From NCBI GenBank assembly GCA_013823945.1, contig PNMZ01000005.1, positions 124,001 to 188,000 of the forward strand: 64,000 nt of DNA, given 5' to 3'. The first letter of the stretch is position 1. Each line of letters starts with the position of its first letter. This document shows, piece by piece, positions 38,749-42,776 of this stretch. This DNA comes from a bacterium. GTDB taxonomy: Bacteria > Armatimonadota > Fimbriimonadia > Fimbriimonadales > Fimbriimonadaceae. The position numbers and the translations under genes are program-made. Under the pieces are notes generated by a model that did not search any database, had not been told where the DNA came from, and worked only from the letters and a program-made list of their open reading frames with translations.

Positions 38749-39459
38749 TTATAGCAAATCGATATCGGTTGGTTGCAGGTCGGCCCGGGCGAATAGGTCT
38801 GGTCGCCGGGATTTTGTGCGAATCAGCTGTTGTTGGCGGCGCCATTCGGCGATTTTTTTGTGGTCACCGGAACGGAGAACGGGCGGTACTTCTTCGCCAA
38901 GGAATTCAACCGGGCGTGTGTAGAGAGGAAAACCGAGGAGTCCGGAATTGGAGTGGGAGTCGTCTTGGTGAGATTCTGGAGAGCCGAGGACACCGGGGAG
39001 GAGGCGAACGATGCTGTCGGTCATGGCGAGAGCAGGAAGTTCTCCTCCGGTGAGGACGAAATCGCCAATAGTGAGGATATGGGTGGCGATTTGGGTTGCG
39101 ACGCGCTCATCAATCCCTTCGTAATGACCACAAATGAAAATGATGTGTTCGGCTTGGCTGAATTGCTCGGCGTGGGACTGAGTAAAAAGTTCGCCTGCGG
39201 GATCGGTGAGGATGATTTTTGTTTGGGAATTAGGCGAGTAGGATTGTACTGCTAGGTGGATGAGAGGAGCCATCATGACCATCCCGGGGCCTCCGCCATA
39301 GGGAGAATCATCAACGGTACGGTGATTGTCGGTGGCGAAGTCACGAGGGTTTTGGGTGGAGAAAGTGACAAGGTTTTGGGTTTGTGCGCGGGCGATGATG
39401 CTGTGATTTAGGGTGGGTAGAACAAGGTCGGGGAAAAGGGTTACGAAGTCTATTTTCAT
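38749..39459 (-). CDS. trmD: tRNA (guanine-37-N1)-methyltransferase
   Basis: SpoU-TrmD (SPOUT) knotted methyltransferase that makes m1G37 in tRNAs, preventing frameshifts. At 236 residues it is standard, with the start [13 protein letters not shown], the [14 protein letters not shown] block, [27 protein letters not shown] and the SAM-binding knot [20 protein letters not shown]. It heads the trmD-rplS-lepB-oxidase string. rimM and rpsP, often upstream, are not present here. Confidence 0.97.
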
Positions 39460-39545
39460 TGCCAGTTGGTTGAGGTTACCGTGAAGCTGGAGAAGTCAGG
39501 GGAATTGCCCGATATTTTTACTGGGAAATTGAATCTGAACTCGTG

Positions 39546-41003
39546 ATGAAGCGGCGCGGCTGGACTCTGGTGGAGAACTTGACGGCGGCAACCTGTTTGG
39601 TTGTTGTGGCGGCTTCGGTTGGAAATGCGGTGGGGTTTAGTGCCGCCCGGACGAACTTTGAGAAGCAGCGCAGCGTGGTTGTGAGCCGAGTGAGGTCGGA
39701 TATTGGGGAAACGGAAGCAATGTCGCGATTGGGGGCGGCTCCGGTGAGTGGGGTGACTCAGATATCGAGTTTGTACGGAGTACCGGCGGGATTTTCACTA
39801 GCAAGAACAGTTACTGAAGATACGGCAAACAAGGGTCGCTATTTTGTGGAATGGGAGGGGAAATGGACGACGGATCGCGAGAATGTGGTTCGGGTGAGTT
39901 CTGCGGTTACAGTGAGTTTGGGGCAGATTGTTACAGTGAATCCCAAATCGACTTTTGGCGTGAATTACAACATTCCGGCGGACATGCCAGTCGCAATTGA
40001 TTTGGAGGCGCGAGGGATAGTGCCGGGGGATCGGATCACTTTAGCTCCTGTGAACACTTGGACGGCGTGGGGGAGTAATCCCCCACCGGCGTGGCTGGCG
40101 GGGCTGGTAGCACTTTTCAGTTCGACGAACGAAGTCTTGCCAGCTTTTAGTTTGGTAGAGCGGGTACCGGGTGCAGTTCCGGTTGCGGCCGGGCCGGGGT
40201 TTGTGACTGGGGATCGTTGGAGTTTGGCGGCGGGCTTTCCGACGGCGACATTCCAGGTGAGTTCGAATAATCCCGGGCTCCGGAGTAGCACTTCGGTGGT
40301 TGTTCCGGCGGGGGCGCGGTACCTGTTTGTGGGCGTGGGGGATATCCCTTATCACACGGATAACCGGAGTAGTTTGGAGGGATTTGGGGTTCGGATTGCG
40401 AAGATCGCTTCGGGGGTATCGGGCGGGGCTGAAGTTCTGGTTGACTCCCGTTGGATGTACGGTAGTCAGGGGTTCAATGGGATGTCATTCGGATATTTTG
40501 AAGCGGCGACCCTTGCGGCAGTTGATGAAAAGATGTGGCGGTTCATGCGCAAGAACAATGACGCGCAGTTTAATGATTCCGCTTATTCGGTTGATGGGGG
40601 GTTGGTCAGTGGATCGAGTCCGACTCCGAGTGCATTTTGGAATCTGCAAGGGGTGACTTGGATGCACCCAAGCGGAGGTGGAAGTCGGACGGGAGGGAGT
40701 TTCCATATTGCGGCGCGCCGATGGACGGCGGCAATTGGGGCGACGAATGCAGTTCTGACGGCCAATTGGACACGAAATGATGCTTCCAGCTCCGGCGTGG
40801 AGCTGTCCATTGTCAAGAATGGCGTGGCGATTTGGTCGGACTCTTTTTCGAGGCGGGAAGCAGCGGGAGTGAGCAAGCCAGTGAGCTTAAACCTTGGGCG
40901 ACTGAATGCTGGGGATTGGTTTGAATTTCGGCTGGGGCCAGGATCCAACGATTCATATGATTCGACGGTGGTGTGGTTCCAGTTGTCGGGGGTGCCGGAT
41001 TGA
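39546..41003 (+). CDS. Prepilin-like protein with C-terminal lectin-type beta-sandwich domains
   Basis: A 485-residue protein beginning with a type IV prepilin motif: basic RRG then WTLVENLTAATCLVVVAASV, where cleavage after Gly and a Glu at +5 are expected. The hydrophobic helix is followed by a head of two beta domains. The first, at about residues 140-290, has PGDRITLAPVNTW and PAGARYLFVGVGD then DNRSSLEGFGVRI, resembling the PA-IL/LecA lectin fold. The second, at about 350-485, ends in GDWFEFRLGPGSND. The size and domains suggest a pilus-associated adhesin rather than a major pilin. It overlaps the next gene by four bases (TTGA). The lectin assignment is inference. Confidence 0.7.
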   Translation: MKRRGWTLVENLTAATCLVVVAASVGNAVGFSAARTNFEKQRSVVVSRVRSDIGETEAMSRLGAAPVSGVTQISSLYGVPAGFSLARTVTEDTANKGRYFVEWEGKWTTDRENVVRVSSAVTVSLGQIVTVNPKSTFGVNYNIPADMPVAIDLEARGIVPGDRITLAPVNTWTAWGSNPPPAWLAGLVALFSSTNEVLPAFSLVERVPGAVPVAAGPGFVTGDRWSLAAGFPTATFQVSSNNPGLRSSTSVVVPAGARYLFVGVGDIPYHTDNRSSLEGFGVRIAKIASGVSGGAEVLVDSRWMYGSQGFNGMSFGYFEAATLAAVDEKMWRFMRKNNDAQFNDSAYSVDGGLVSGSSPTPSAFWNLQGVTWMHPSGGGSRTGGSFHIAARRWTAAIGATNAVLTANWTRNDASSSGVELSIVKNGVAIWSDSFSRREAAGVSKPVSLNLGRLNAGDWFEFRLGPGSNDSYDSTVVWFQLSGVPD

Positions 41004-42367
41004 GATTGAATCGAGGCGGGGCGATGCTCTGGGTGGTTGTGACAGCAGCGATTTTGGCGGTCGCAACGGGGGGAATGTTGCGGCTAAATGCAATGGCGAG
41101 TCAGACGGTGAGTCGGAGCGAAGAGCGAGCCCAAGCTGAGGCGGCCCTGGATGGATGGGTGAGTTTGGTCAAGGCTCAAGCGCAAAACCGATTGCTTTTG
41201 ATGCCGAGTTCCCCGAGTGCTACATTTGGCGGAGTCTTAGTCACGGGATCGGTGACAGATACAAGTTCCGTGATGGCGAGAACGGCTCAGGCTACCGCAG
41301 TGGCAGTCGTGAAGGGGAGGAGTTATAGGAGGACGGTCACTGTCGGATTGCCATTGAAGGAGACTACGGAAGCAGTTGGACTCTTTGGTACGTATTGGCA
41401 AACGAATGGGACGGACAGTTGGTGGGAATGGCCGCCCAAGCTGACGGATTCACCGACTTTGATGAGGGTTGACACACAGTTTGAATATTCCGGCCAAACG
41501 ATGAGTTTTATGCCGGATGCTCCGAGTCCGTTTGTGATTTGGGAGGGGACATTAGTTGTGCCTGAGACGGGAACATATACTTTTTCGATTAGCGCGGATA
41601 ACTGTTGGAGTTTGTGGATCAATGGATCAAATGTTTACGATGCGTTTTATGCAGGATTTTCTCACGAGGGGTATCGGAGTTCGCCTGTCAATCGGGGATT
41701 GACTTTTAACTGGACGAAGGGTCAGCGATTGCCATTTCGGTTTTATTTTATGGATTATGGCGGAGCCGGTCGGCTGATATTTCGGTGGCAGGCGCCGGGG
41801 AATACAGCTTATGTTCCTGTTCCGGCGGACGTTTTCCGTCCGGCAAATTTTGTGGGAGGAACCCGCAGGACATTTACGATCCCTTGGCGGGCCAATGCGG
41901 TTTATAACACAACCTTGGAGGACTCGCCGACGGTTGTGAGTGCGACGCCGATTGATTTGCAGAGCTTGGGTTTTTATCCGGGGGATCGGATTCGGTTGAG
42001 TATGAGTGGAGGTTGGAACGCTTGGAGTTGGCCAGCGAATCGCGAGTACATTTTTCAGAATATGTCGGCGGTAATTTCTAGTTCGAGAGCGATTAATCGT
42101 AATCCAAGGGCAACGAATCGTGTACCGAGTGCATTGAATACGGGATTAGGACAAATCACAAATCCTCATGCAGACCAAGCAAATGACTTTTGGGGGGATC
42201 AAGGCTACTTTGATGGAGCGACTTGGAGTGGTCAGCTGGGGCCGCAAGGAGTGACGATTCCGGCTGGTGGACGCTACTTATTTGTTCAGGGTTGGGACAG
42301 CTATTGGGGTGATAATGGAATTTCGCGTTTGGGTCTGAACAATGTTGTGATTGAAAGAGCGAACTGA
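41000..42367 (+). CDS. PilX-like membrane protein with PA14 and lectin-type domains
   Basis: A 455-residue protein coupled to the preceding prepilin-like gene. I set the start at TTG 41000, which overlaps the upstream TGA as TTGA; the longer frame to 40973 would read into the neighbour. The N-terminus RLNRGGAMLWVVVTAAILAV is a single membrane helix like PilX-type minor pilins. A PA14 domain follows at about 140-265 (EGTLVVPETGTYTFSISADN, GRLIFRWQAPGN). The C-terminal 150 residues contain a second copy of the module seen in the previous gene, with PGDRIRLSMSGGW and IPAGGRYLFVQGWD. It likely binds sugars at the cell surface. Confidence 0.7.
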   Translation: MRLNRGGAMLWVVVTAAILAVATGGMLRLNAMASQTVSRSEERAQAEAALDGWVSLVKAQAQNRLLLMPSSPSATFGGVLVTGSVTDTSSVMARTAQATAVAVVKGRSYRRTVTVGLPLKETTEAVGLFGTYWQTNGTDSWWEWPPKLTDSPTLMRVDTQFEYSGQTMSFMPDAPSPFVIWEGTLVVPETGTYTFSISADNCWSLWINGSNVYDAFYAGFSHEGYRSSPVNRGLTFNWTKGQRLPFRFYFMDYGGAGRLIFRWQAPGNTAYVPVPADVFRPANFVGGTRRTFTIPWRANAVYNTTLEDSPTVVSATPIDLQSLGFYPGDRIRLSMSGGWNAWSWPANREYIFQNMSAVISSSRAINRNPRATNRVPSALNTGLGQITNPHADQANDFWGDQGYFDGATWSGQLGPQGVTIPAGGRYLFVQGWDSYWGDNGISRLGLNNVVIERAN

Positions 42368-42395
42368 TTGAGATCGTTGGGGGTAAATTTGGTTT

Positions 42396-42776
42396 ATGAG
42401 CGTTCCAGCTGATTTGAAATATACAAAGTCACACGAGTGGGTGAAAGTAGATGGTGATACGGTGACGATTGGAATCACCGATCATGCGCAGAGTGAGCTG
42501 GGCGACATTGTGTTTGTTGACTTGCCGACGGTGGGCCGAGCCCTGGGTGCCTCGGATAGTTTTGGGACAGTTGAAAGTGTGAAGACGGTGAGCGACATTT
42601 ATGCACCAGTTGGGGGTGAGGTGGTCGCCGTGAACGAAACATTGGGTGCGCAGAGCGAGCTCGTCAATTCCGATCCTTATGGTGACGGATGGTTGGTCAA
42701 GTTGAAGCTGGCTGATGCAGGTGAGTTGGATGGTTTGTTGAGTGCGGAAGGGTACGAAGCAAGCTTGAACGACTAG
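42396..42776 (+). CDS. gcvH: Glycine cleavage system H protein
   Basis: Lipoyl carrier that shuttles the aminomethyl group between P and T proteins of glycine cleavage. At 126 residues it is standard, with the lipoyl-lysine Lys63 in ESVKTVSDIYAP and the N-terminal KYTKSHEWVKVDGD. gcvP and gcvT are not in this window. TAAATT lies 6 bases before the ATG, another close -10-like element. Confidence 0.95.
   Translation: MSVPADLKYTKSHEWVKVDGDTVTIGITDHAQSELGDIVFVDLPTVGRALGASDSFGTVESVKTVSDIYAPVGGEVVAVNETLGAQSELVNSDPYGDGWLVKLKLADAGELDGLLSAEGYEASLND

Follow-up and report, generated by a model that had tools for sequence, protein, structure and literature searches.

The window, by which we mean the whole 64,000-nucleotide stretch of DNA that was analyzed, comes from a 3.16-Mb genome of the Armatimonadota and contains two overlapping plus-strand genes whose products are putative modular minor prepilins. 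Gene 1 (39546..41003; protein P0001) encodes 485 residues and is probably of the PilV/GspI type, a V/I assignment taken from its orthologues; an alternative GTG start lies at 39543, three bases upstream on the same strand. Gene 2 (41000..42367; protein P0002) has a TTG start, encodes 455 residues and is probably of the PilX/GspK type. The two are joined by a TTGA start/stop overlap at 41000..41003 on the plus strand. A first-pass annotation of this DNA had described both reading frames, an RRG/WTLVE prepilin motif, a PilX-like helix at the N-terminus of the second protein and the TTGA overlap, all of which were confirmed. Both genes are under strong purifying selection: against the orthologues (93–97% identical) in Armatimonadetes bacterium Uphvl-Ar1, a very close relative whose gene 2 is 97% identical, Ka/Ks is 0.078 for gene 1 and 0.030 for gene 2, with zero nonsynonymous changes in residues 1–125 of gene 2. 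The orthologues in genome G006 are 93% (gene 1) and 97% (gene 2) identical to the window copies. The overlap is kept in four genomes (G000, G006, G002 and G008): it reads TTGA both here and in the close relative, reads ATGA in G002 and spans 11 nt in G008. Because Ka/Ks is low and the overlap is kept, we conclude that the two genes are real and coupled.

The pair is flanked by trmD on the minus strand and gcvH on the plus strand, both visible within positions 39459–42396 of the window. Five genomes of the same genus without the pair have trmD directly beside gcvH, leaving an empty site, and on this ground we read the pair as behaving like a two-gene cassette that is gained or lost as a unit. 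It is missing from five of the seven other genomes of the genus, a patchy spread from which it follows that the pair is dispensable for filament assembly in general. In G002 the pair lies downstream of a carA-like gene and upstream of gcvH, with gene 2 split over two contig ends whose joint we infer. A scan for promoters and terminators found no excess over shuffled sequence.

The N-termini of both proteins are supported as pilin-type by several lines of sequence comparison. Residues 1–127 of gene 1 (39546..39926, plus strand) form a predicted stalk that opens with MKRRG/WTLVE, with Gly at −1, Glu at +5 and a hydrophobic helix. Residues 1–117 of gene 2 (41000..41350, plus strand) open with NRGG/AMLWV, again with Gly at −1 and, as in K-type pilins, with no Glu5, and a low-confidence model of this stalk places four predicted strands after a long helix. 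AlphaFold2 runs from four-sequence alignments gave pLDDT values of 39 and 43 for the two proteins, values too low for a pilin fold to be judged. The window copies score weakly against pilin families: gene 1 reaches 13.1 bits with N_methyl, below the cut-off of 21.2, and the best pilin match of P0002 is GspK (E=0.025, 14.1 bits), far below the cut-off of 130. The gene 1 orthologue in G029 passes the cut-offs of N_methyl (25.3 bits) and TIGR02532, and that in G008 matches PilV (E=0.003, 18.1 bits, below the cut-off of 52.2) and GspI (E=0.011, below cut-off). Homologues of gene 2 in G002 (E=0.055, 14.1 bits, far below the cut-off of 40) and G013 (E=0.098, also far below) match ComGG. The curated cut-offs of the I/V and K/X families were reached by neither gene and by none of the orthologues; PilV, GspK and ComGG were the best matches.

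Gene order in relatives adds to this picture. The stalk of gene 2 is homologous to X-position genes of relatives that lie upstream of PilM/PilN-like genes; the order is V-W-X followed by a PilM-like gene in G019 and W-X followed by PilM/PilN-like genes in G013 (gene names in both assigned by eye), and G029 holds a complete V-W-X cluster. No PilW/J-type gene adjoins the window pair, which, judged from these comparisons, is best read as a V/I-type and an X/K-type gene without an adjacent W/J. Because orthologues of gene 1 match pilin models and the gene 2 stalk resembles X-position genes, a pilus role for the pair is likely. The pilin roles proposed at first pass thus stand as far as the N-termini are concerned, through those orthologue matches and the gene 2 stalk alignment, but the window copies themselves fall below the curated cut-offs. 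Plain signal peptides were also considered for these N-termini and rejected on the strength of the Gly−1/Glu5 motif of gene 1, the cut-offs passed and the V-W-X order seen in G029, and the homology of the gene 2 stalk.

The genome also holds the machinery that such proteins would need, as the first-pass annotation had proposed to check. Selected stretches of the genome were read for these genes, and they contain one prepilin peptidase (Peptidase_A24), several full-length T2SSE assembly ATPases together with PilT-like ATPases, and a PilM/N/O/Q/B/C-type cluster that has no V-W-X set just upstream. A second locus combines PilD with three very large V/W/X-like pilins: at C1:329884-337497 (L078), pilins of 700, 756 and 1100 residues adjoin the prepilin peptidase gene, with N_methyl as their only Pfam match. 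A further stretch (L082, C2:67000-77000) has repeated minor-pilin sets, including two X-like proteins of about 655 residues with no Pfam match. There is in addition a T2SS-type cluster that includes I, J and K-like genes of its own, and about 64 N_methyl matches exceed the cut-off across the genome. For Fimbriimonas ginsengisoli, 79 pseudopilin genes have been reported, of which 65 have N_methyl (PMC4072686), so that an abundance of pilin genes is a known trait of that class.

Beyond the stalks, both proteins are built from further domains. By profile match, the presence of a PA14 domain in gene 2 (residues 140–273, 41417..41818, plus strand), as annotated at first pass, is certain: P0002 scores 50.3 bits (E=2.9e-13) against a Pfam gathering cut-off of 24. 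A fold search with the low-confidence model of gene 2 returned PA14 structures, some of them sugar-bound, as its best matches, and from this search we used only the PA14 part, as agreement with Pfam. The sugar/Ca2+ motif of MpPA14-type lectins is Asp-Asp (PMC8092209). The alignment of P0002 shows Asp200-Asn201 at this DcisD motif, whereas the gene 2 orthologue in G008 retains Asp-Asp; the structure 6qdi has Asp-Asp in one PA14 repeat of the alignment. The domain resembles the PA14 lectin domains of MpAFP and the yeast Epa/Flo adhesins (PMC8092209) in family, with a score over the Pfam cut-off and a place among the top fold-search matches, but differs from them in carrying Asp-Asn where they have Asp-Asp. 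Four further PA14 matches lie elsewhere in the genome (C4 and C6), in open frames of 780 to 1964 residues. The X-type homologue in G029 (L038:3-548, minus strand, C386) has a different head, cut by a contig end, that resembles the start of a C-type lectin domain, a likeness that Pfam and PDB searches of the truncated head did not confirm.

A module of about 150 residues is common to both proteins, in gene 1 at residues 129–286 (39930..40403, plus strand) and in gene 2 at residues 298–455 (41891..42364, plus strand). The copies are 33% identical over 142 residues (blastp, E=2e-9), and a module HMM trained only on six secreted or exported non-pilin relatives matches P0001 at 129–286 and P0002 at 298–439, with E about 1e-16 each, compared with a best score of 5.8 bits among 500 control shuffles. 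The sharing of this module, described at first pass as C-terminal in both proteins, therefore holds, but in gene 1 the module is internal and is followed by a domain of its own at residues 290–485 (about 195 residues; 40413..41000, plus strand). This C-terminal domain has no Pfam or NCBIfam match, is found in 15 of 61 genomes and recurs on further proteins of the family, among them a PEP-CTERM-like protein of G005. A long polyglutamine tract separates the module from this domain in the gene 1 homologue of G008 (L036:1-75, L037:2-150), at a point where the assembly breaks.

Across 14 module sequences, Leu43, Gly51, Arg104, Pro164, Phe171 and Asp182 (alignment columns) are invariant, and Asp176 and Asn183 are present in 13. 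Near the module end lies a near-invariant D-x(4-6)-DN motif (D266...D272-N273 in gene 1; D433...D438-N439 in gene 2), which is a candidate metal site. The module is present in 11 of 291 Armatimonadota genomes. It occurs on pilin-like proteins in G000, G006, G002, G008 and G029, and, judged by eye, on exported proteins with PEP-CTERM-like ends (G170 and G240), with dockerin-like ends (G037, twice, and G031) and with glycine-rich repeats (G030, cut by a contig end). Because exported PEP-CTERM-like and dockerin-like proteins also carry it, the module is an extracellular domain. Pfam and NCBIfam searches with the module consensus and Pfam scans of ten members returned nothing significant, and the module is an unnamed family; a plasmid search with the consensus found none.

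Taken together, we favor, with a probability of about 0.6, a reading in which the two genes, translationally coupled, encode modular minor pilins that pair up at the tip of a type IV filament and would act there as an adhesin. The N-terminal helix of each protein would insert it in the inner membrane, and the prepilin peptidase of the genome would trim it, after which the I/PilV-type and K/PilX-type subunits would assemble as initiating, tip-located subunits, with coupled translation favoring matched amounts of both. From the tip would project a K-type head made of PA14 and the shared module and an I-type head made of the shared module and the C-terminal domain, and the ligand of these heads would most probably be a polysaccharide or lie on a cell surface, bound possibly through Ca2+. 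The role in tip initiation is suggested by the parallel to the H-I-J-K tip complex and to PilA/PilB/PilC of Streptococcus sanguinis (PMC9934059); processing, tip location, the pairing of the two proteins and the class of ligand are inferred. Sugar binding is a putative function of the heads. Against the tip-adhesin reading stand the weak pilin scores of the window copies, the Asp-Asn in PA14, the lack of an adjacent PilW/J and the patchy spread of the pair.

The pair could instead be minor pseudopilins of a type II secretion system or a competence-type pseudopilus, with heads that recognize exported substrates or DNA and no role as an adhesin. GspK and GspI are indeed among the weak best matches, the genome has a T2SS-type cluster and the K subunit of the T2SS also bears an extra domain (PMC8179133). 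We consider this unlikely, since I, J and K-like genes are already present within that cluster, the X-position relatives of gene 2 adjoin PilM/PilN-like and not T2SS genes, and PA14 on pilins is classed as a carbohydrate-binding module (PMC8179133). Rather improbable, too, is a reading without any filament, in which an uncleaved N-terminal signal anchor keeps both surface proteins in the inner membrane and their heads, outside the membrane, bind sugar or Ca. The Gly−1/Glu5 motif in gene 1, the G029 orthologue with its scores over curated cut-offs and its V-W-X order, and a gene 2 stalk homologous to the X genes that precede PilM/PilN-like genes all argue against such an anchor, although it would suit the weak scores of the window N-termini and the presence of the same module on exported non-pilin proteins.

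The weakest candidate is the identity proposed at first pass, namely that the module is a genuine LecA/PA-IL lectin in both proteins, which we regard as very improbable: the D-x(4-6)-DN motif near the module end recalls the LecA calcium site, but PF07828 matched neither the module nor, over cut-off, anything in 61 and then 291 Armatimonadota genomes, PDB profile searches with the module (10, then 14 sequences) returned no lectin up to E=10, and the Pfam scans of ten members and the consensus gave nothing significant. The assignment to LecA is unsupported by these comparisons and amounts to a motif impression with no backing from PF07828, PDB profile, Pfam or NCBIfam searches; the low-confidence AlphaFold2 models (pLDDT 39 and 43) are of a kind from which a PA-IL beta-sandwich cannot be read. 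A distant structural relation to LecA is still conceivable. Near the domain end, the module and LecA/PA-IL both have a D...DN motif and then a short strand, but the module has no detectable sequence or profile similarity to LecA/PA-IL. The calcium-site residues of LecA include Asp100 and Asn107 (PMC12684298).

The pair has clear parallels among known systems, and the first-pass suggestion of a new type of surface adhesin system was overstated. Modular pilins on record number more than 1,200 and fall into 264 architectures, with PA14-bearing ones among the 15 commonest architectures (PMC8179133), a glycan-binding complex of two minor pilins has been described (PMC9934059) and modular pilins with lectin heads are published (PMC8179133, PMC9934059). 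The window proteins likewise join a stalk to domains that are not pilus-specific, namely PA14 in gene 2 and a module also found on exported non-pilins. Like PilB and PilC of S. sanguinis (PMC8179133, PMC9934059), they appear to combine a pilin stalk with a grafted functional module, as minor pilins of a putative tip complex; unlike them, they belong to the Armatimonadota, are encoded by overlapping genes, have copies of one unnamed module on each partner and combine PA14 with that module on one subunit. With the I/K minor pilins of the H-I-J-K tip complex (PilV/PilX, GspI/GspK and ComGE/ComGG) they appear to share stalks of types I and K, a K subunit without Glu5 and neighboring genes, whereas their heads are larger than those of the canonical V/X pilins and no J/W-type gene is adjacent (G029 does have one). 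The novelty lies in finding one unnamed module on each of the two partners, and in the module family as such.

These findings carry the concept of modular pilins, whose details come from a Gram-positive streptococcus, over to a poorly explored phylum rich in pilin genes, and suggest that the same candidate ligand-binding module can be present on both tip subunits and not just on one. They also point to an exported, still unnamed domain family that has a conserved candidate metal site and is open to direct cloning and testing. A more speculative possibility, which we hold to be doubtful, is that the module represents a new family of Ca2+-dependent glycan-binding domains, that the I- and K-type tip subunits hold two copies plus PA14 side by side as a multivalent sugar clamp and that the K-type head has been swapped between lineages, with PA14 in most and a C-type-lectin-looking head in G029. 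G107, which belongs to a different family of the phylum, carries the module on a W-like pilin that is followed by an X-like gene (L068:2578-4441, minus strand; names assigned by eye), which suggests a second, independent grafting.
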